Shown one piece after another: positions 16,248 to 53,723 of a DNA stretch of 53,917 nt. Position numbers and translations under genes: made by a program. The notes below the pieces were generated by a model, which was not told where the DNA came from, made no database searches, and saw nothing but the letters and a program-made list of their open reading frames with translations. The stretch comes from Acidobacteriaceae bacterium (GTDB lineage: Bacteria; Acidobacteriota; Terriglobia; Terriglobales; Acidobacteriaceae): the NCBI GenBank assembly GCA_003140235.1, contig PLJN01000016.1, positions 9,889 to 63,805 on the forward strand, in the 5' to 3' direction. Positions within the stretch are counted from its first letter, which is position 1; each line of letters opens with the position of its first letter.

Positions 16248-16350
16248 GGGCCGTGCGTCTCCTCGTGTCTACTATTGATCTCATTGGATCTGCCAGCGGC
16301 AGTACACTTGTTTTGAGGAAGGTCGAGAGCTGTAAAGGAAAATGCTCCTC
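16248..16350 (+). repeat. Duplicated upstream region, copy 1 (contains a tRNA-Val 3'-end-like segment)
   Basis: This 103-bp stretch before the first TPR gene is nearly the same as 17920-18023 before the second, from GTCTACTATTGATCTCATT to TGTAAAGGAAAATGC. Positions 16257-16276 match the tRNA-Val 3' end (8242-8261) at 18 of 20 bases. A shared AAGGA ribosome-binding site lies at the right end. No convincing promoter could be chosen. Confidence 0.8.
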
Positions 16351-17889
16351 ATGAAGCAGGTTGCCTTGTTGCGAAGAATGTTGCGAGTGATCTTTATGTG
16401 CCAAGGTGCGACGAGACGTGCGGCCTGTATTGCTTTGTTGTTCATGATTGCGGTTTCATGCAGTTATGCGCAACAGACAGAAACCGCGGAGAATCACATC
16501 AATCTCGGCAATGCGCTCTATAACAAGGGCGACTTGAACGGGGCTATCGCTGAATACCAGGCTGCGCTCCGGCTCAATCCCAACGATGCTCATGCCCACA
16601 ACATTCTCGGCAATGCGCTCGGATCCAAGGGCGACTTGAACGGGGCCATCGCGGAATACCAGGCTGCGCTCCGGCTCAATCCCAATCATGTTGAGGCACA
16701 CCGTAGTCTCCTTTCGCGCCTAATCGGCTTCCTGAAAGACCTTCGCGAGCAACTTACCTTGAATCGCATCGTGCTAGCTCTGTTTGTTCTGCCCGTGCTC
16801 TTCTATATTTACCGCGAACTCACTCGCGACGCTCTCATCATTGAACCCTTTAGCGTTCCCAAACATTTTGAGGAGGCTGGACTCACGCCTGAGATCGTGG
16901 CCAACCGGATTAGTGACGCAATCCTCCAAATTGAAACAAACGCGCAGACCCGGATGAAAAAGGACAACCTCACATCGCTGCACGATGAGGGGTCAACACC
17001 GGATGTAGAAATACCGGGGACAAAACTAGGTTTAAAAACGCTCGTTGAAGTAACCCGAGCCGTTTTTGGAATCTATCTAAAGCACGTCAGCGGCGACATT
17101 GTTGCTCTTGCAAGTGCTGAATCTCCCGCGACCAAGGCGCAAGTCAAGGCCACTGTCTATATCACGCAAGGTCGAAACAGGAGTCATGCCGTGAGTCTCG
17201 TCGTAGGCACCGACGACATTGATGTCCTGGCGCAAGGCACGGCGGAAATGATTTTGGGGCAGGTCAATCCGTACATACTGGCCGTATATCGATACGGCCA
17301 CGGTGAGGTCGAGAAAGCCGTCGAACTTGTTCAGCGTATGATTCAAGATCCGTCCGAGGATCGCAGCCACGTAGCGGCCGGTTTCAATTTCTTGGGCGTC
17401 GTGCTCACTCAACAAAACAAGTACGACGAAGCAGTCGCCAAATATGAGAAGGCCATCGAGATTGACCCCAGAGATGCTATTGCTTACTTCAACTGGGGCG
17501 TCGTGCTCTCTGAACAGAAAAAATACGACGAAGCGGTCGCCAAGTATCAGAAGGCCATCGAGCTCGATCCGAAACTTGCGCCTGCTTATAACAACTGGGG
17601 TCGCGTGCTCTATTACCAGAAAAAGTACGAGGAAGCCGTGGCCAAGTATCAGAAAGCTATCGAGCTTGATCCGAAAAACGCTGACGCTTATAACAACTGG
17701 GGTCGCGTGCTCTATTACCAGAAAAAGTACGAGGAAGCTGTGGCCAAGTATCAGAAGGCCATCGAGCTCGATCCGAAACTTGCGCCTGCTTACAACAACT
17801 GGGGCAACGTGCTCAGAGACCAGAAAAAGGACGACGAAGCTGAGGAAAAGTTTGCTAAAGCTCGCGAGCTTTCCCAAGGGCCACGGTAG
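16351..17889 (+). CDS. Exported/membrane TPR-repeat protein with an internal unknown domain
   Basis: A 512-aa protein. It has an N-terminal hydrophobic signal ending near SCSYAQQ, two 34-residue TPR units (LNGAIAEYQAALRLNPN), a membrane helix (RIVLALFVLPVLFYIY), an unrecognised domain of about 190 aa, and five C-terminal TPR units (KKYDEAVAKYQKAIELDP type). It probably acts as a protein-protein scaffold on the membrane. The start at MKQV (16351) is preferred over the ATG at 16342 because the paralogue at 18024 has a 1-bp difference that puts the earlier ATG out of frame while MKQV is conserved. The 3' repeats are nearly identical in DNA, a sign of recent expansion. Confidence 0.85.
   Translation: MKQVALLRRMLRVIFMCQGATRRAACIALLFMIAVSCSYAQQTETAENHINLGNALYNKGDLNGAIAEYQAALRLNPNDAHAHNILGNALGSKGDLNGAIAEYQAALRLNPNHVEAHRSLLSRLIGFLKDLREQLTLNRIVLALFVLPVLFYIYRELTRDALIIEPFSVPKHFEEAGLTPEIVANRISDAILQIETNAQTRMKKDNLTSLHDEGSTPDVEIPGTKLGLKTLVEVTRAVFGIYLKHVSGDIVALASAESPATKAQVKATVYITQGRNRSHAVSLVVGTDDIDVLAQGTAEMILGQVNPYILAVYRYGHGEVEKAVELVQRMIQDPSEDRSHVAAGFNFLGVVLTQQNKYDEAVAKYEKAIEIDPRDAIAYFNWGVVLSEQKKYDEAVAKYQKAIELDPKLAPAYNNWGRVLYYQKKYEEAVAKYQKAIELDPKNADAYNNWGRVLYYQKKYEEAVAKYQKAIELDPKLAPAYNNWGNVLRDQKKDDEAEEKFAKARELSQGPR
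17527..17812 (+). repeat. Tandem 102-bp coding repeats in the TPR gene
   Basis: Nearly three successive 102-bp (34-codon) units here are almost identical, for example AACTGGGGTCGCGTGCTCTA and CGAGGAAGC in neighbouring units. Such low divergence at synonymous positions shows recent unequal crossing-over or slippage. The copy number is likely to vary between strains and to be a weak point for assembly. Confidence 0.8.
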
Positions 17890-17946
17890 AGGGTCAAGAA
17901 TTCGAGCCTGCCCCGGCGTGCCGTGGGTCTCCACGTGTCTACTATT
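17881..17946 (+). repeat. tRNA-Val 3'-half-like remnant at the first TPR gene's stop
   Basis: CACGGTAGAGG-TCA-TTCGAG at 17881-17909 follows the tRNA-Val 3' half (8218-8245) with about 24 of 29 bases matching. After about 17 unrelated bases, 17927-17946 matches the tRNA 3' end again. The TAG stop of the TPR gene lies within this stretch. It cannot fold as a tRNA because the 5' half is missing. Origin from the tRNA at 8183 is inference. Confidence 0.5.
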
Positions 17947-18023
17947 GATCTCATTGAATCTGCCAGCGGCGGTAGACTTGTTGTTGAAGAAAGTTCGAGA
18001 GCTGTAAAGGAAAATGCCCCTCG
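17920..18023 (+). repeat. Duplicated upstream region, copy 2
   Basis: This is the second copy of the block described at 16248-16350, with scattered substitutions and one extra base just before the start codon. Together with the similar N-terminal coding sequences it shows that the two TPR genes arose by duplication of a segment that includes the upstream region. Confidence 0.8.
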
Positions 18024-18740
18024 ATGAAGCAGGTTACCTTGTCAACATTGTTCGCAATGTGCCAGGGCGCGACGAGATGTGCGGCCGGTATTGCTTTGTT
18101 GTGCATGATGGCAGTTTCGTGCAGTTATGCGCAGCAGACAGAAACAGCGGAGACGCACAACAGGCTCGGCGTCACGTTCTATGAGATGGGTGACCTGAAC
18201 GGGGCCATTGCTGAATACCAGGCTGCGCTCCGGCTCAATCCCAATCACGCTAATGCGCACACCAATCTCTGCAACGCGTTCTATGCCAAGGGCGACGCGA
18301 ACGGGGCCATTGCTGAATACCAGGCTGCGCTCCGGCTCAATCCCAACAATCCTATGGCACACCATAATCTCGGCGTCGCACTCCGAGCGAAGGGAAATCT
18401 CAGCGAGGCCATCGCTGAATACCAGGCTGCGCTCCGGCTCAATCCCAAGTATGTTCCAGCGCTCAACAATCTGGCCTGGCTTTATGCAACAGCAAGTGAT
18501 GCAACCCTCCGCAACCGCTCAAAAGCTTTGGAATATGCCCTGCAAGCCGTGGCGCTTGAGAACGCAACGAATGCCCACCCCTTGGATACCTTGGCGGAAG
18601 CCTACTATGTCAACGGTGATTACGCGAACGCTGTCCTGACGGAGAAGAAAGCCCTGGCTCTTCAATCCGACGATGCCACCAGAAAAAGCCTTGCAGAACG
18701 CCTTGAAAAGTATGAGCGGGCGAAGCAAGCACCCCGTTAG
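18024..18740 (+). CDS. Exported TPR-repeat protein (paralogue of the upstream TPR gene)
   Basis: A 238-aa protein with the same N-terminal signal as its neighbour (CSYAQQTETAE). Four TPR units follow, three of them carrying the identical motif GAIAEYQAALRLNPN, then a degenerate C-terminal TPR-like region (AWLYATASDATLRNRSKALEYALQAV). It lacks the membrane helix and the unknown central domain of the paralogue. Probable periplasmic scaffold. The DNA of the TPR core is almost the same across both genes, which suggests ongoing gene conversion. Confidence 0.85.
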   Translation: MKQVTLSTLFAMCQGATRCAAGIALLCMMAVSCSYAQQTETAETHNRLGVTFYEMGDLNGAIAEYQAALRLNPNHANAHTNLCNAFYAKGDANGAIAEYQAALRLNPNNPMAHHNLGVALRAKGNLSEAIAEYQAALRLNPKYVPALNNLAWLYATASDATLRNRSKALEYALQAVALENATNAHPLDTLAEAYYVNGDYANAVLTEKKALALQSDDATRKSLAERLEKYERAKQAPR

Positions 18741-42647: not shown

Positions 42648-44264
42648 TTGCCCCAGATATTCGACGTCAAATCGAAAGAGCGAGGCGCGGCCGCAATGGC
42701 CGAGTTGGCGGGTCTGCGCAAACAATTTCTGGAGCAAGCCGGCACAGGTGTACCGCCGGTGTTTTCGTCACGGGTTGGCGTAGTGCTTTCGGGAGGCGGA
42801 GCACGCGGCGCTTACGAAGCTGGAGTGCTCATGGCTTTCCAGGACGCCAAGGTCCCCACGCATATTCTGGCCGCTACATCCATCGGAAGCATTAATGCAG
42901 CGTCGTACGCGGCGCATTCTGAAGGGCTGGTTGGCAAAGCTGACTCTCTGGTGAAGTCATGGATGGAACTGACTCCAGCCATGCTGGGGATTGACTGGTC
43001 ACGCTATATTTTTACGCTGGCTGGGCTGGTTGCCGCTTCCGCAGGCATTGGAAACCTGGTGCGCGTGTTGCTGGAAGAGAGCGGAGTTTATTTCCATACG
43101 AGGAGCCCCAAGATCACATGGTTTGCCCTGATGGCTGCGGGCGTGGCTATTCTGCTTTTTGCGGACAAGCTTTCCTACGTGGGGCATCTGGTGCAAAACC
43201 TGCTGCGCGGACGGCCCCGAGACCCCGATCATCGCAAGGCCTGGATTTCGTTTGGCGCGAACGTGCTGGTTTGGGGTTTTGTTGTTTTGTTTTTGAATCT
43301 CACGCATATCCATGCTCCGCTCCTGAGACATCCTTATGTTGACTTGAGCGCACCGGGGCCGGCTGTCGCCGTAATTTTTCTTGGCTGGCTGGTGTACCGG
43401 ATTCTGCGCGAACCGCTGAGCCGCCTCAGTCACCGCTTTCTGCGCCTGCCGCTGCGCACCGGATTATTCGCCAACTTCGAGCGGACAAAATTTCTGCGCG
43501 CGCGCATTCCCGTGGATGGGCTTCGGAATTCCAGGATTCGCGTAGCCATGACGGCTACCGACCTGAATCACGGCGTGGCACGTTTTTTCTCCAACACTCC
43601 GGTTGAGATTCTGGCCAATGATCCGGGAGCGAATAAGGATTTTGTTCTGCGCGAGTTTGAGTACCCGCCGGACCTGGTACAGGCGGCGGTCGCCTCGTCT
43701 TCTTATACGTTCGCGTATGAGGCTGTCCCCATGGACGGCCGTCTCTGGACGGATGGTGGCGTTATGACCAACCAGCCGATCCTGCCGGCGTTGCGTCTGG
43801 GAGCGGACTTGCTGGTTCTGGTAATGATCTCGCCGCTCACCGGCGCTGACGAGGCAGGCGACATCAAGACGTTTCTCGATGTTGGCGTGCAGGCTGTGGA
43901 CATTATGGTGTCCAAGAATTTCAAGACGGACATCATGCTGCTCGACAACGTCAACCGGCTATGCACGATTTATGCGGACGAACTCGGCGTCCGGCCGGAG
44001 CAACTGGAATTGGAGATTGGCAAGCAGCGCTATCACTACGTTAAGTCGTTCAGCATTGCTCCGGAGAAACCGCTGCCCGCCCTGGCCCTGGATTTTGACG
44101 CCGAAATCATCGGCCCGATCATTGTCCAGGGATATCGCGACGCCATGCACGTTCTTCCGAAATTTCTGGAGTATGAAGCGGCACGCCCCACTCCGGAGAC
44201 AAAACAACTCGTCCGCCTGGCGGCGGAGCGCCCGGAAGGGAATTTCAGGACACCGATTTCCTGA
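42648..44264 (+). CDS. Patatin-like phospholipase with inserted membrane helices
   Basis: A 538-aa serine acyl hydrolase. The oxyanion loop is VVLSGGGARGAYEAGVL (from about residue 45), the nucleophile elbow is AATSIGSINAASY (Ser78; the first Gly of GxSxG is Ala), and the catalytic Asp is in LWTDGGVMTNQP (Asp369). Between these lie about 150 residues with four probable membrane helices (YIFTLAGLVAASAG, WFALMAAGVAILLF, ANVLVWGFVVLFL, AVAVIFLGWLVY), so the enzyme is membrane-embedded. TTG at 42648 is supported by AGGAGA five bases upstream; an ATG exists at 42696. It overlaps the convergent PAP2 gene by 20 bp. Confidence 0.88.
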   Translation: MPQIFDVKSKERGAAAMAELAGLRKQFLEQAGTGVPPVFSSRVGVVLSGGGARGAYEAGVLMAFQDAKVPTHILAATSIGSINAASYAAHSEGLVGKADSLVKSWMELTPAMLGIDWSRYIFTLAGLVAASAGIGNLVRVLLEESGVYFHTRSPKITWFALMAAGVAILLFADKLSYVGHLVQNLLRGRPRDPDHRKAWISFGANVLVWGFVVLFLNLTHIHAPLLRHPYVDLSAPGPAVAVIFLGWLVYRILREPLSRLSHRFLRLPLRTGLFANFERTKFLRARIPVDGLRNSRIRVAMTATDLNHGVARFFSNTPVEILANDPGANKDFVLREFEYPPDLVQAAVASSSYTFAYEAVPMDGRLWTDGGVMTNQPILPALRLGADLLVLVMISPLTGADEAGDIKTFLDVGVQAVDIMVSKNFKTDIMLLDNVNRLCTIYADELGVRPEQLELEIGKQRYHYVKSFSIAPEKPLPALALDFDAEIIGPIIVQGYRDAMHVLPKFLEYEAARPTPETKQLVRLAAERPEGNFRTPIS

Positions 44265-46572: not shown

Positions 46573-48723
46573 TTATCTTGCAGGTGATTGTAATGGAAGA
46601 GCTTGCGCCATGAGCGGCAATCCGCGTAGACGCACGCCGGTCGCGCTGAAAATGGCATTACCCACGGCGGGCGCGAGTCCCACAATGGGCGTCTCGCCCG
46701 CGCCAGCGGAGGGAACATCTTTTCTGTCAAGGAGTTCGACTTGAATCTCCGGAAGATCACGAAAACGGGGTACGCGGTAATCGCGAAAGTGCGGGTTGAG
46801 GATGCGGCCGTTGTCGAAGTGAATAGCCTCAAACAACGCGCCGCCAATCGCCTGTACAATCGCGCCGGACACCTGGTTGCGCAGTCCGTTGGGATTGACC
46901 ACGGCGCCGCAATCGAAGGCTGCGACCACTCGCGTGATCTTGACGTCGCCCGACGGGCCGGCAGTTACTTCGGCGCACATCGCGATGTAGCCGTTCTTTT
47001 CAAAACCACCGGCAATGCCAAAGCCACGGCCGGGCGTAGCTTGCTGCTTGCTCCAGCCAAAGCGCGCGGCGGCCGTTTCAAAGACCGCTCGCAGCCGGGG
47101 GTCGGCGATGTTCTTCAAACGGAACTGGAGCGAATCCATTTTGAGCAGTTGCGCCAGTTCGTCCATGTGGACTTCGCGCGCAAAATGGTTCGCCGTTGCC
47201 GCCAGCCCGCGATACGATCCCTGGCGCAGCGGCGAATCTGCCGGATGAAATTCAATCCGCTTGTTGGCGACGGTGTAGAACGTCTCAATGCCCGCAGGTC
47301 CGGAGTTGTAGTTGTGATATTCCCAGGCCGCCAGCGTACCGTCATCGTGGACGCCGCTTTTTATTTCAATCACGCCCGCGGGACGGAAGTAAGCCCAAGT
47401 GAATTCCTCTTCGCGCGTCCACACGAGTTTGACCGGCTTGCCGGTGGCTTTGGACAGACGCGCGGCTTCCACGGCGGCGTCTCCGGTGTGTTTGCCGCCG
47501 TACGCCGATCCTGTATCGGGCACGATGACTCGTACGCGATCGGTTGGGACATGAAAAGCCGTTGCCAGTTCCTCGCGTACGCCAAAGGGACGCTGCGTGC
47601 CCGTCCAAACTGTCAGCTTGTTGTCGGTCCACGCGGCCACGGCCGCGCGCGGTTCCAGGGGAGCGTGCGCGATGTAGGCTGCGGTATATATCTGGGAGAG
47701 CGTCTTCGTCGCCGATGCCATCCCCGCCTGGATCGAACCATTTTCGCGATTGCCATTTCCGCTATTGGCAGAGGCGCCCGGTGCTTTCAGATGGGCGAAC
47801 AACTCGGCTTCGGACACCTGTTGGGGAGCGTTCCACTGGGCCTGGATGGTTGCGAGCGCGGTGCTCGCCGTTTCCGAATCAGCAGCCGCAACGCCGACAA
47901 AATCGCCATCGCGCACAACTTTGACGCCGGGCATCTTTTCCGCGGCGCTGGAATCCAAGGAAACCAGCTTGGCGTTGAACGCCTTGGGACGGAGGACTTT
48001 GCCATACAGCATCCCAGGACGCGTGATGTCCGATGTGTATTGATGCGCGCCAGTCACGAATGCTTTGCCGTTAACTTTGGGAGATGCGGCGCCCGCGATG
48101 TGCCACTGCGACGCAGCGGCGACCGGTGCGTCGGGGCCAATGATTTTCACGAGCTTCTCGCCGTGGGTCAATTCGCCGTAGCTTATGTTTTTGCCGGACT
48201 TGGAATCAGTGACCGAGCCATTCGCCGCAGAGAGCTGGGCGCGGTCCACTTGCCAGCGCTGGGCCGCCAAATCCACCAGGGCTTCACGCGCACTGGCGGC
48301 AGCTTTGCGGAGCTGGGGACCCATGGTGGGCGTGGTGCGGCTGCCGAACGTGCCCATGTCAAAAGGAGTCAGATCGGTATCGCCCATCACCATCTCAACG
48401 GACGCCTCGGGCGTTCGCAGTTCTTCGGCAACTTGCTGGGTGAGCGAAGTGCGAATGTTCTGTCCCATTTCGACTTTGCCGGTAAACACCGTGACTTTTC
48501 CATTGGCGCCGATATGCAGCCACGAAGCTATGTCCGCGGGCGTTGCGTCTCCACTGGAGCGGCCGCGGCCCGACTGCTGGGACAGCAACGTTGGTGCGCA
48601 GACACCCACGACGATGCCGGCGCCAAGAAATTTAAACAAATCGCGACGGTTGACCTCAAACAGATGGCGGAGACGGTCCACAGCATGTTGCTCGAGTTCG
48701 GCGTTGAGCAGCTTGTCGGTCAT
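46573..48723 (-). CDS. Molybdenum hydroxylase, large (Mo-cofactor) subunit, Tat-type
   Basis: A 716-aa member of the xanthine-oxidase family, isoquinoline-1-oxidoreductase/aldehyde-dehydrogenase (IorB) branch. The N-terminus [17 protein letters not shown] is a Tat-like export signal. Cofactor-site segments include [84 protein letters not shown] and the catalytic Glu in [19 protein letters not shown]. The start overlaps the stop of the Fe-S subunit gene (4-bp overlap). The substrate may be an aldehyde or N-heterocycle; sequence alone does not decide. No FAD subunit is present, as is usual for IorAB. Confidence 0.92.
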
Positions 48724-49193
48724 TTCTTGGCTTCCCCAGCCGCGGCCCTATGGATCGCGGCCGCAATGCGGGGATACGTCCCGCAGCGGCAGATGTTACC
48801 GCTCATATGCTGCACAATTTCTTCGTCGGAGGGAGCAGGATTGGTGCTGAGCAGAGCATGGGCCGACATGATCATGCCCGGAGTGCAATACCCGCACTGG
48901 AAGGCTTCTTCGTCCAAGAACGCCTGCTGCACGGGGTGCAAGCCGCCATTATAGGACAGAGCTTCAATCGTCTGGATTTTTTTGCCTGCCACCGAAGCGG
49001 CGGGAGTGCGACAAGAGCGGACGGCACGGCCATCGAGTAATACGGTGCAAGCGCCGCACTGGCCTTCGCCGCAGCCGTATTTGGTGCCGGTCAGTCCGAG
49101 GTCGGTCCGCAACACCCACAAGAGCGGGCGGTTGCCGTCCACGTCCAACTGGACAGGCTTGTCGTTGAGTTTGAAAGCAATCGTGTCGGCCAT
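48720..49193 (-). CDS. Molybdenum hydroxylase small [2Fe-2S] subunit
   Basis: A 157-aa iron-sulfur protein that passes electrons from the molybdenum site. The plant-type cluster motif is [16 protein letters not shown] and the C-terminal cluster is [17 protein letters not shown] with [11 protein letters not shown]. The start at MADTIAFKL (49193) is preceded by GGAGG about eight bases upstream. It is the first gene of the five-gene reverse-strand operon. The reverse-strand upstream region from 49206 probably carries its promoter, but no clear pair of boxes is seen. Confidence 0.94.
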
Positions 49194-49278
49194 GTTGTCC
49201 TCCAATTCAAGGATATTTGTTTACACATTACACCGCGTTGGGAATTTATATTGGTTGTTCTTTAACCTAATTTGTCCG

Positions 49279-49309
49279 GCTGTCAAATGGTAATTGTTGA
49301 CAGCTTTTT
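49279..49309 (+). terminator. Hairpin with T-run in the gap before mutS
   Basis: GCTGTCAA (49279-49286) and TTGACAGC (49297-49304) form a perfect 8-bp stem with a 10-base loop, followed directly by TTTTT. On the + strand it looks like an intrinsic terminator, yet no + strand gene precedes it in this window. It may belong to a gene absent from this side of the junction or serve as a palindromic operator. The 169-bp gap 49206-49374 holds nothing else I can name. Confidence 0.45.
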
Positions 49310-49374
49310 CCGCTCATCGCGGCAGAGTAAAAATTCGTTTCGACCTTGCGGAAATTTCCGCCTAACTTCCCGTG

Positions 49375-52047
49375 ATGGCCAGTGCCGAAACCCAACTCAC
49401 GCCGATGATGACGCAGTATCGCCGCATCAAAGCCGAACTGCCCAAGGACGCGCTGCTGCTCTTCCGGCTCGGCGATTTTTACGAGATGTTTTTTGAGGAC
49501 GCCAAAGACGGCTCGCAACTCCTCAATCTTTCGCTCACCGCGCGCAACGGCATTCCCATGTGCGGTCTGCCGTTCCACGCGGCGAACAATTACGTCGCCC
49601 GCATCCTCAAGGCCGGCCGCAAGGTTGCCATCTGCGACCAGACCGAGGAAGCCAGGCCCGGCAAGCTCGTCACTCGCGAGGTCACGCAAATCCTCTCGCC
49701 CGGCACGCACTTCGACGAACGGATGCTCGTCGCCGAGCGCAACAACTTTCTTGCCGCAATTTGTCCGTCGGGGAAAATCTTCGGACTCGCGCTGGTGGAT
49801 TTGACGACCGGCGATTTCCTGACCACGGAATTGGAAAACGATTCCGCGCTGCTCGCTGAACTGGAACGGCTGCGCCCGGCGGAAATTCTCTTGCCGATTG
49901 ACGCAACCGCCGTCCGCGATTCATTGCGCGGTTCGTTCAAAATCTTGAGTGGCTACGATGACTGGACGTTCGCGCCTGAAACCGCGCTTTACACGGTGCG
50001 CGACCATTTCAAGGTCGCATCGCTCGACGGCTTTGGGCTGAAGGATCGCCCTGCAGCCATCGGTGCGGCGGGCGGAGCGTTGCATTACCTCGTCCATAAT
50101 CTGCGGCGCGATGTGAAGCATCTCACGCGGCTCTCGTTTTATTGTCGCAACGATTTCCTGGCGCTCGATTACATCACGCTGCGGCATCTGGAGATTCTCG
50201 AACCGCTCCACCACGACGCTCCACGGAACTCGTCACTCTATGGCGCGCTGAACAAAACCGTCACGCCAATGGGCGCGCGGCTTTTGCGCAGTTGGCTCTC
50301 GCAACCGCTCGCTTCCGTGGAACCGATCCGCCGCCGGCAGGACGCGGTGCAGACGTTCATCGAGAATTCACCCGGCCTCGACCGTTTCCGCGCCCAGCTC
50401 ACGAGCGTCCGCGATTTGGAGCGCACCCTGGGGCGCTTAAGTTCGGGCAGCGGAAATGCGCGCGATCTCGGCGCGTTGCGTGCGGCGCTCGAAAAGATTC
50501 CAACAGTCAAGAGCATCCTCGCTGCTTTGGAGCGCGGTGACTCGTCACCGCCTTTCACAGTTGGCGACTTGTCGGCAGCGGCGGCGCGACCAGTCGCGCC
50601 GCAGGAAAGCGCAGACAATTCTGCCCATTCCACATCACTGGTCGCCGATCTCACCAGTCAACTCTCCGAAGCGCCCGACCTCGTCGAGTTGATTTCGCAC
50701 GCCATCGTGGACGAACCGCCGCTGGCGGTGAAGGAGGGTGGCATGATCCGCGACGGTTTCAGCACCGACCTCGATGAACTCCGCAACGCCCAACGCGGCG
50801 GCAAGGATTGGATCGCCAAGTTGCAGACGGACGAAATCAGCGCCACCGGCATCACGTCGCTCAAGGTGCGGTTCAATTCCGTCTTCGGCTACTACATCGA
50901 AGTCACCAGGTCAAACCTCGACAAGGTCCCGCCGCATTACATCCGCAAGCAGACGGTCGCGAACGGCGAACGCTACATCACGCCCGAGTTGAAGGACATG
51001 GAAGGCAAAATCCTCGGCGCGGAGGAGCGCAGCGTGAAGCTGGAATACGAACTCTTCCAGCGCGTGCGCGAAGAAGTATTGGCGCAGATGGCGCGCATTC
51101 AGCAGAGTGCTTCCGTACTGGCACAGTTGGATGTGCTGGCTTCGTTTGCGGAAACGGCGAGGTTGCACAACTATTGTCGCCCACAGGTTGGCGGTGAAGG
51201 CGTGCTGCAAATTCGCGATGGCCGGCATCCGGTGTTGGAGCAGCAATTGGTAGATGAACGGTTTGTGCCGAATGATACGGGGATGGCTTCCTCGGAGCGC
51301 GGCCTTCAGGCCGCTTCAACGTCCGAAAGCGATGGCTCGGTGAAGCAGCCTGAAGGCCGCGCTCCGCAGATTGCCCTCATCACCGGGCCGAACATGGCGG
51401 GCAAATCCACTTACATCCGGCAGGTGGCGTTGCTGGCGTTGCTCGCGCACACGGGAAGTTTCGTTCCGGCGGCCGAGGCGCGCATTGATCTGGTGGACCG
51501 CATCTTCACGCGCATCGGCGCGAGCGATGACCTGGCGCGCGGGCAATCCACCTTCATGGTCGAGATGACCGAGACGGCGAACATCCTCAACAACGCCACG
51601 CCGCGCAGCCTCATTGTGCTCGATGAAATCGGACGCGGCACGAGCACGTTTGACGGCTTGAGTCTCGCGTGGAGCATCGTCGAGCATCTGCACAACGCGG
51701 TTGGCGCGAAGACGCTGTTCGCCACGCACTATCACGAGCTGACCGAACTGGCCGGGCGGTTGCCGCGATTGAAGAATTTCAACGTCGCCGTGCGCGAGTG
51801 GCACGACTCGATTGTGTTCCTGCGCAAAATCGTCGAGGGCGGCACGGACAAAAGCTACGGCATCCAGGTCGCACGACTGGCCGGTGTGCCGAAGGAAGTC
51901 TTGGAACGCGCGAAACAAATCTTGATCAACCTCGAAGAATCCGAACTCACGCCGGAAGGCAACGTGCGCCAAGCTCGCCGCCAGCAGGACCGCGACAAGC
52001 TCAAGCAACTCGCCCCGCCGCCGCAGATGGATTTGTTTGGCAGGTGA
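49375..52047 (+). CDS. mutS: DNA mismatch repair protein MutS
   Basis: An 890-aa mismatch-recognition ATPase. The N-terminal mismatch motif RLGDFYEMFFEDA has the Phe-x-Glu wedge (Phe35, Glu37). The clamp and core domains follow. Walker A is TGPNMAGKSTYIRQ (from about residue 670), then come IGASDDLARGQSTFMVEM and Walker B LIVLDEIGRGTSTFDGLSLAW, ATHYHELTEL, and the C-terminal PPPQMDLFG tag. About 25 residues at about 640-664 (SSERGLQAASTS...KQPEGRAP) are an insertion encoded by an inverted repeat. ATG at 49375 has no Shine-Dalgarno site. Wording of the N-terminus resembles verrucomicrobial MutS. Confidence 0.95.
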   Translation: MASAETQLTPMMTQYRRIKAELPKDALLLFRLGDFYEMFFEDAKDGSQLLNLSLTARNGIPMCGLPFHAANNYVARILKAGRKVAICDQTEEARPGKLVTREVTQILSPGTHFDERMLVAERNNFLAAICPSGKIFGLALVDLTTGDFLTTELENDSALLAELERLRPAEILLPIDATAVRDSLRGSFKILSGYDDWTFAPETALYTVRDHFKVASLDGFGLKDRPAAIGAAGGALHYLVHNLRRDVKHLTRLSFYCRNDFLALDYITLRHLEILEPLHHDAPRNSSLYGALNKTVTPMGARLLRSWLSQPLASVEPIRRRQDAVQTFIENSPGLDRFRAQLTSVRDLERTLGRLSSGSGNARDLGALRAALEKIPTVKSILAALERGDSSPPFTVGDLSAAAARPVAPQESADNSAHSTSLVADLTSQLSEAPDLVELISHAIVDEPPLAVKEGGMIRDGFSTDLDELRNAQRGGKDWIAKLQTDEISATGITSLKVRFNSVFGYYIEVTRSNLDKVPPHYIRKQTVANGERYITPELKDMEGKILGAEERSVKLEYELFQRVREEVLAQMARIQQSASVLAQLDVLASFAETARLHNYCRPQVGGEGVLQIRDGRHPVLEQQLVDERFVPNDTGMASSERGLQAASTSESDGSVKQPEGRAPQIALITGPNMAGKSTYIRQVALLALLAHTGSFVPAAEARIDLVDRIFTRIGASDDLARGQSTFMVEMTETANILNNATPRSLIVLDEIGRGTSTFDGLSLAWSIVEHLHNAVGAKTLFATHYHELTELAGRLPRLKNFNVAVREWHDSIVFLRKIVEGGTDKSYGIQVARLAGVPKEVLERAKQILINLEESELTPEGNVRQARRQQDRDKLKQLAPPPQMDLFGR
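51293..51366. repeat. In-frame palindromic insertion within mutS
   Basis: A left arm of 26 bp (51293-51318, beginning CGGAGCGCGGCCTTCAGGC) and a right arm (51341-51366, ending GCCGCGCTCCG) are inverted repeats with one mismatch and a 22-bp loop. The insertion keeps the frame and sits between the connector region and Walker A. Palindromes with this GCGGCCTTCAGG core are familiar to me from Verrucomicrobia genomes. Confidence 0.85.
51981..52040 (+). repeat. mutS 3'-end segment, original of a 60-bp duplication
   Basis: This segment, from CCAGCAGGAC to GGATTTGTTTGG, recurs at 52685-52744 with only three differences out of 60 bases. Here it is the in-frame end of mutS (QQDRDKLKQLAPPPQMDLFG). Confidence 0.9.
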
Positions 52048-52048
52048 T

Positions 52049-52630
52049 TCACTGCAAGTGGTGACTGGGAATTGAGCAAGTGGTGGCTTGGCCAACCGAA
52101 GCAATTGTGTAAGTACCATTGACGGGACATTTGAGAGATTTACCACCATCTCTGCCGAAATAAGGCTTCAAGTCATCCATCGTAGGAGTTTCTGTTTGCG
52201 CCTTTTTATGTTCCAAAGCCCATTGCTGTTTTGCGCCTTCAATCTGCATCAAATAATTGTTGCACGTATTTTGTTCCGCAATAGTGCGCGATTTCAAATA
52301 ATACGGGATTGCGATAGGCAAAAGCAGAACACAAAGCCCGATGCTGACATAGCCTGTAATCAGTCCGTTCCGGGCAACTTTTTCGCCTGTGAATCGTCCG
52401 AAGGAATGTTTAATTCTTAATCGGGCAATGTGTCCACAGATGACGGCGGGGATAGCGAACAGCGGGCCGATGCAAAGGAATCCAACAGACAGGCTGCCGA
52501 AAACCAGACTCGTGACCGCGAGGCGGGAAAGCTTGGGTTGCGTTCCCTGGTCCGGTGGAGGGACGTCGTTCACAGTTTTCTTTGATTCGCTTCGATTTCT
52601 CAGGCTGACCGAGCATGGCCAGACGCGCAT
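52049..52630 (-). CDS. DUF4190 / pilin-like membrane protein
   Basis: A 193-aa protein. Residues about 35-75 form the DUF4190-type double membrane helix (LAVTSLVFGSLSVGFLCIGPLFAIPAVICGHIA, then GLITGYVSIGLCVLLLPIAIPYYL). The C-terminal part (NNYLMQIEGAKQQWALEHKKAQTETPTMDDLKPYFGRDGGKSLKCPVNGTYTI) resembles pseudopilin-type domains common in Verrucomicrobia and Planctomycetes. Start may be ATG 52630 or GTG 52573; neither has a clear ribosome binding site. It is convergent with mutS and lies between the two copies of the mutS 3' end. Confidence 0.75.
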   Translation of the reverse strand: MRVWPCSVSLRNRSESKKTVNDVPPPDQGTQPKLSRLAVTSLVFGSLSVGFLCIGPLFAIPAVICGHIARLRIKHSFGRFTGEKVARNGLITGYVSIGLCVLLLPIAIPYYLKSRTIAEQNTCNNYLMQIEGAKQQWALEHKKAQTETPTMDDLKPYFGRDGGKSLKCPVNGTYTIASVGQATTCSIPSHHLQ

Positions 52631-52684
52631 TATTGTTCAACGAAGTTTCTTTGCGGGTCTCTGCGGTACGAAGTACCCACGTCC

Positions 52685-52744
52685 CCAGCAGGACTGCGAC
52701 AAACTCAAGCAACTCGCTCCGCCGCCGCAGATGGATTTGTTTGG
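52685..52744 (+). repeat. Duplicate of the mutS 3' end
   Basis: 57 of 60 bases match 51981-52040, including CAGATGGATTTGTTTGG, and here a TAA follows one codon later. No mutS frame leads into it, so it is a remnant. It brackets the DUF4190 gene with the true mutS end and suggests that this gene was added by a duplicative recombination event. Confidence 0.85.
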
Positions 52745-52841: not shown

Positions 52842-53723
52842 TCAAACGACAAACCGTGGCTCATGGACGGTGGCGGTGGAGTGTTTGCGAAGCAGTTCCA
52901 CAAACTTTGCCAGTCCGCGTTTCTCATCCGTCCCCAGATGATAGTGGATGTGCCAGCCCAGATAATCCTTGCGAAACTCGTAGTCGTATTCCGAACGGTC
53001 ATGAACGATGGCATCCAATGTATCCAGGCCAAAATTTTTCGCTTCGCGCAGTTGCCGCCGCAATGTCGCGTTATCGATGCCTCGCCGCAACGCCCAGACG
53101 GCATAGACAAACGGGAGACGGGTCAGCTCAGACCAGGCCGCGCCCAAGTCCCAGATTTCGTGTGCGGGTGCCGCCCGTAAAAAATCAATCGCCGGGTCGC
53201 CGATGAGCAGCGCGTAATCTGGCATGGCGGCGAACTCATAACTCGCCAACGGCTTAAACTCGGGACGTAATCCACGTTCCGCCAATAAGACGCGCAACAG
53301 ATGCACGCTCGTCAGCGACGCCGGGTCGCAATAAATTTCCCGCGCCTCCTCCAGCGGACCTCGATGCGCCAGAAAAACGCTTTTGACTTCGCCGAGCGAC
53401 GCCACCGCGATGCCGTCCAGCACGTCGTACGCGTCGTTGAGCAAAACCTCCGTCACACTGACGAGTGCCGCGTCCACCTCGTTGGCCCGCAACATTTCCG
53501 CGAGTTTCGAGGGTGTGGCGAAAATCACTTCACTCTCCAACCCGCGCGTCAATGGCACCGCATTCAAATACCGCACCGAGCCGACGCGGAACGGCGCGAG
53601 CGATTGTTCGAGGCTGGTCTCGCGCTGATGATTCAACGTCCGCTGGTCGCGCTCGGCGCGCTTGGCCAGTTGCTCCACCGAATCCGGGGCGGCCATGCGG
53701 AGTTTGGGAATGTCGTCAGTCAT
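52842..53723 (-). CDS. mqnA: MqnA, chorismate dehydratase-like, menaquinone futalosine pathway
   Basis: A 293-aa enzyme of the periplasmic-binding-protein fold that makes 3-enolpyruvyl-benzoate from chorismate, the first step of the futalosine route. Landmarks are RVGSVRYLNAVPLTRGLE, the segment ANEVDAALVSVTEVLLND, IYCDPASLTSVHLLRVLLAERG, DYALLIGDPAIDFL and WDLGAAWSELTRLPFVYAVWALRRG. The ATG at 53723 gives the expected N-terminus; the longer frame upstream is not conserved in character. It has no clear ribosome binding site. An N-terminal extension of about 45 aa (MTDDIPKL...) precedes the core. Confidence 0.9.
   Translation of the reverse strand: MTDDIPKLRMAAPDSVEQLAKRAERDQRTLNHQRETSLEQSLAPFRVGSVRYLNAVPLTRGLESEVIFATPSKLAEMLRANEVDAALVSVTEVLLNDAYDVLDGIAVASLGEVKSVFLAHRGPLEEAREIYCDPASLTSVHLLRVLLAERGLRPEFKPLASYEFAAMPDYALLIGDPAIDFLRAAPAHEIWDLGAAWSELTRLPFVYAVWALRRGIDNATLRRQLREAKNFGLDTLDAIVHDRSEYDYEFRKDYLGWHIHYHLGTDEKRGLAKFVELLRKHSTATVHEPRFVV

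Follow-up and report, generated by a model that had tools for sequence, protein, structure and literature searches.

An Acidobacteriaceae contig that changes to verrucomicrobial DNA in front of mutS, probably by chimeric assembly, and ghost mutS tails

The closest described counterpart of the contig reported here is the misassembly chimera of metagenome-assembled genomes. In the GUNC report (PMC8201837), mixed-lineage fragments stand on one contig and foreign genes duplicate functions of the bin, as they do here. The present case differs in that one piece of 4.6 kb, at the end of a contig, is concerned, with a join seen in the assembled sequence. The same report describes misassembly as fairly infrequent compared with mis-binning. 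Mis-binning cannot place two phyla on one contig. A second counterpart is the interphylum transfer island, in which foreign genes of one donor lineage likewise lie beside host genes. Also, mismatch-repair genes are described as insertion sites, with a mobile element inside mutS of Vibrio (PMC5296598) and SpyCI at the mutL 5' end (PMC3430984), and the mutS-rpoS region of E. coli is described as mosaic (PMC4209514).

The window, that is, the whole stretch of 53,917 nucleotides that was analysed, corresponds to bases 9889-63805 of contig C79, and its right end is also the right end of the contig. The bin to which it belongs (G000) comprises 4.9 Mb in 204 contigs, with an estimated completeness of 89.24% and a contamination of 3.45%, a level at which a bin can contain a two-phylum contig. 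The bin itself is taken as acidobacterial because the piece of its native-type mutS on contig C152 falls, in a tree of 44 rows, into a starred group of 21 rows with support of 100/99, made up of this piece, all 19 MutS rows of the relatives used and a named Terriglobia protein (L094). Within the tree, the piece groups with the same-genus genomes G008 (100/100) and G001 (98/89). This native-type gene is split over two contig ends, C171:9213-9416 (of 9418; L113) and C152:3-776 (L112); the placement refers to the C152 piece only, which contains a run of 49 N, the C171 piece being too short to place. In about 322 kb of sampled stretches of the bin, 31 N runs are found, exactly two bases long in 26 cases; they look like the scaffolding of a draft, although part of them may not be scaffold gaps. 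No N occurs at the join, and the sequence is continuous across the switch.

An earlier note on this DNA had proposed either a transfer boundary or a chimeric contig join, with acidobacterial DNA on the left and verrucomicrobial DNA on the right. Both readings predict two phyla on one contig, which is what the trees and the DNA matches reveal, and the two phyla were named correctly. The boundary is real and far exceeds chance. The features around it are collected in Table 1.

Table 1. Features on both sides of the phylum switch (window coordinates)
Feature	Position	Strand	Basis
Molybdopterin-binding hydroxylase subunit, acidobacterial side	46573..48723	-	Pfam MoCoBD_1/2; same-genus orthologues
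2Fe-2S hydroxylase subunit, acidobacterial side	48720..49193	-	Pfam Fer2, Fer2_2
Interval holding the phylum switch	49194..49330	.	Ends of homology on either side (approximate bounds)
Hairpin with T run, without an upstream gene on its strand	49278..49309	+	Fold
Non-coding block common to verrucomicrobial mutS upstream regions	49331..49374	+	DNA matches; alignment
mutS, verrucomicrobial	49375..52047	+	81% to L030; tree
DUF4190 gene, flanked by the mutS 3' end and its duplicate	52049..52630	-	Pfam
Duplicate of the mutS 3' end	52680..52744	+	92% over 65 nt to the first copy, 51976-52040
mqnA, verrucomicrobial	52842..53723	-	Pfam VitK2_biosynth
CAGGCATCTTGCCTG repeat, 17 nt short of the contig end	53886..53900	+	Distribution across the bin and verrucomicrobial genomes

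The acidobacterial assignment of the left side agrees with orthologues of the molybdopterin-binding subunit in the bin's own genus, which five of the eight genomes searched possess (68-72% identical), the remaining three giving weaker, distant matches. Homologues of the 2Fe-2S gene adjoin the large subunit in five same-genus genomes, and G008 keeps further neighbours of the left region, for example, window 42813-44258 at 69%. Moreover, the repeat CGCTGATGACGCTGAT has four copies in the left part of the window and three in other stretches of the bin's contigs (about 322 kb), with none in the right part and none in about 240 kb of partly overlapping verrucomicrobial loci. The absence of the left repeats from the right side, also claimed before, holds for the four left motifs tested, which gave no match on the right even when one mismatch was allowed. 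Elsewhere on the left side (window 16250-18458), tandem 102-nt units and a block repeated about 1.67 kb apart are observed.

On the right side, the proteins are verrucomicrobial, as had been read from their sequences. Among the best 80 loci listed, MutS is 81% identical to L030, from an uncultured Verrucomicrobia subdivision 3 bacterium, and a Terriglobia protein shows 45%; none of the 40 relatives gave a MutS above 742.7 bits. In the tree of 44 rows, the window MutS and L030 pair at 100/100 within a starred set of eight rows (the window, L030-L034, L039 and L073), which are mostly titled Verrucomicrobia or Akkermansia, with one Omnitrophota and one entry titled only "bacterium". Likewise, MqnA shares 69% identity with its counterpart in the genome of L030 and 50-68% with those of six other genomes of the starred MutS set, compared with 33% for the other copy of the bin and 34% for a Terriglobia copy. 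The DUF4190 protein has a 47% relative downstream of mutS in the verrucomicrobial genome G065. At the DNA level, the right-hand side matches 48 of the 49 genomes of L030's verrucomicrobial family (E up to 0.001), with scores of up to 1456 bits. It also matches 314 of 396 Acidobacteriota genomes, G000 included, at an E value of 1e-20 or better; among the matches listed, those in Acidobacteriota sit in the conserved C-terminal part of mutS, and the best one outside G000, in the other 395 genomes, reaches 303 bits. The right side had also been said to carry different palindromes, and this is borne out by CAGGCATCTTGCCTG, whose single copy in the whole bin is the one in the window and which occurs in 1 to 27 copies in each of 11 of 14 verrucomicrobial genomes. 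None is found in five same-genus genomes or in the verrucomicrobial locus sample of about 240 kb, and the same letters read backwards, used as a control, are absent from all 20 genomes.

The switch can be bounded by the ends of homology. Acidobacterial homology extends to 49115 at the DNA level or to 49211 in translation, and the verrucomicrobial homology upstream of the mutS start codon, an ATG at 49375, reaches 49331 in L158, L159 and L162 (71-73 nt, 74-81%), perhaps extending to 49317 in L171 (E 0.005). An alignment with ten verrucomicrobial loci, among which L030 and L170 represent one and the same place, displays a conserved block before the ATG, and nothing aligns farther upstream. The intergenic gap had been given as 49206-49374; its existence is confirmed, but its left edge was misplaced since the 2Fe-2S gene starts with the ATG at 49193, preceded by GGAGG, and the gap therefore spans 49194-49374. 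From its sequence, the conserved block would be promoter-like, with a -35/-10 pair adjoining the start codon and a leaderless mutS mRNA. The lack of a Shine-Dalgarno site in front of mutS would then be explained because its promoter would lie directly before the ATG.

The switch interval is A+T-rich, with a G+C of 0.37 over 49206-49316, and contains the hairpin without an upstream gene that had been described as terminator-like. The hairpin does exist (49278-49305, followed by TTTT; -16.5 kcal/mol, z -2.36, with equally good folds in 5 of 200 shuffles), but it is missing from the output of a terminator scan, which allows loops of up to 8 nt, whereas this one has 10. It could be a terminator that belonged to a verrucomicrobial gene truncated by the join; in the alignment of upstream regions from the ten verrucomicrobial loci, it is not found.

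Composition was considered as decisive proof of the boundary and rejected in that role, the tetranucleotide results being mixed; it is used here as supporting evidence only. The claimed change of genome signature is supported by tetranucleotide z-scores, by which none of 69 pieces of the bin is as verrucomicrobia-like as the right side, but it falls short of proof, since by plain frequencies two of the 69 are, and G+C is nearly equal (0.569 on the left and 0.586 on the right). When the reference is built without mutS, still none of the 69 pieces scores as high as the right side. In terms of distance from the bin mean, however, the right side is exceeded by 12 of 69 pieces (z-scores) or four of 69 (frequencies). 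Moreover, one of 17 acidobacterial mutS loci is more verrucomicrobia-like than the right side, and the mutS-free 1.9 kb of the right side is equalled by seven of 138 bin pieces. The good Shine-Dalgarno sites attributed to the left side are at best weakly borne out: in the left part of the window, 4 of the 38 long ORFs have one, against 3 of 38 for control motifs; the count is crude and its long ORFs may include spurious ones. By the same count, 18 of 160 long ORFs have a site in the bin sample (control, 9) and 3 of 157 in the verrucomicrobial loci (control, 5).

We consider contig C79 to be a chimeric assembly of two organisms, with a probability of about 0.8. About 59 kb of the contig would represent the chromosome of an acidobacterium and, within about 49194-49330, the sequence would pass to some 4.6 kb from the chromosome of a verrucomicrobium related to L030, to end just past an interspersed verrucomicrobial palindrome. 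The join would have arisen in assembly or scaffolding and would be present in no cell, and the CAGGCATCTTGCCTG repeat may be what stopped the contig. A chimeric join is favoured over transfer because the bin already holds counterparts of two of the foreign genes, namely the native-type mutS (C171 and C152) and another mqnA (C139), the foreign side continues to the contig end without a return to acidobacterial DNA, this end lies at a verrucomicrobial repeat, the only copy of a donor-type repeat in the bin, the N runs of the bin look like those of a scaffolded draft, and the segment is found in no other acidobacterial genome searched (0 of 40 relatives and 0 of the other 395 Acidobacteriota genomes, none of them identified as the same species). 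Against the chimeric reading stand the lack of N at the join and the reported infrequency of misassembly. Also, no repeat at the join is common to the bin above chance that could explain a misjoin: when the bin was searched with the gap sequence, neither a second copy nor an overlapping contig emerged, and the best match (E 0.21) was at chance level. Nor was the true continuation of either side found. As regards the acidobacterial one, five same-genus genomes were compared pairwise in translation for the DNA beyond the 2Fe-2S gene, and no pair matched at E 1e-15; without synteny there, the missing continuation is therefore untraceable to another contig.

Taken at face value, the contig would be read as an interphylum transfer of mutS and mqnA, by which an acidobacterial species gains a second mismatch-repair gene and a second gene of the menaquinone pathway. 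The alternative is a recent event in which an acidobacterium acquired the verrucomicrobial mutS-DUF4190-mqnA segment beside its molybdenum hydroxylase operon and kept its own genes. The continuous sequence without N would agree with such a transfer, as would the position of the join between intact genes, both with their upstream regions kept, and the similar G+C on either side. Nonetheless, unlike a transfer island, the segment shows one boundary and no second one before the contig end, no mobility domain is found in the ten proteins around the join, no insertion repeats lie at the boundary, and none of the relatives searched carries the island. Together with the counterpart genes in the bin and the distribution of the segment and of its repeat given above, this makes the transfer unlikely. 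A little less probable again is the picture it would imply of a living acidobacterium with mismatch-recognition proteins of two phyla, one of them from a locus whose home family collects inserted genes behind mutS. The extra mutS should be taken for a transferred gene only on proof from reads, and marking the join keeps the verrucomicrobial mutS and mqnA out of acidobacterial annotation.

That the right side is native, with a divergent acidobacterial second mutS and mqnA merely resembling verrucomicrobial genes, is very improbable. The tetranucleotide use of its mutS-free part, within the range of the bin, and the similar G+C would suit it, whereas the fully supported pairing of MutS with L030 inside the starred set, the much stronger DNA matches in the verrucomicrobial family than in Acidobacteriota (among the matches listed), the non-coding DNA upstream of mutS common to verrucomicrobial genomes and the distribution of CAGGCATCTTGCCTG all speak against it, and a divergent acidobacterial paralogue is ruled out by the MutS tree and the DNA matches.

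The verrucomicrobial piece led to ghost copies of the mutS tail and to what may be a hot spot of insertion downstream of a mismatch-repair gene. In the window, the ghost sits behind the DUF4190 gene. In a survey of 44 loci whose sequence continues for at least 300 nt past mutS (37 family genomes, six other named loci and the window; 220 kb), five showed ghost tails with an E value below 1e-6, with one copy each in the window, G066 and L031 and two each in G051 and G049; the loci L185, L186, L195 and L031 are tied to such tails. All seven ghosts lie on the mutS strand and have their right ends within seven bases of the stop codon, the left ends being variable. Chance was rejected as their origin, since two control stretches of 130 nt from mutS gave a best E value of 1.8e-4 versus 2e-7 to 1e-51 for the tails; weaker tail matches (E 0.007 to 0.04), some on the opposite strand, are at the level of the controls and are excluded from the count.

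The genes between mutS and the ghosts encode DUF4190, a SASA esterase, a 179-residue protein without a family, a signal peptidase, a thioredoxin-like protein, a Mur ligase and DUF5615, and none of these seven matches an integrase family. In both G051 and G049, some 50-60 nt separate the last ghost from the same downstream gene (79% identical), relatives of which stand directly behind mutS, with no ghost, in G065 (60%) and G073 (45%). Judged by gene order, the arrangement in these two genomes would look like that expected of an empty site. The ghosts would fit a history in which single genes repeatedly entered at the mutS 3' end and each of them displaced an older tail, through an integrase or through exchange of mutS with its neighbour, and the region behind verrucomicrobial mutS is possibly an insertion hot spot. 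The Vibrio element and SpyCI share with the ghosts the use of mismatch-repair genes as insertion sites but lie inside mutS and at the mutL 5' end, respectively, whereas the ghosts lie behind mutS and come with no integrase-family match. In the open-licence literature on mutS, Verrucomicrobia and insertion sites, no report of ghost mutS tails was found.

A further observation concerns MutS itself, which in the window has an extra loop inserted in frame just ahead of the ATPase motif; part of this loop is a palindromic repeat (51293..51366, plus strand). The loop site is free of insertions in L032, L033, L034 and L073, and other insertions occupy it in L030 and L031.
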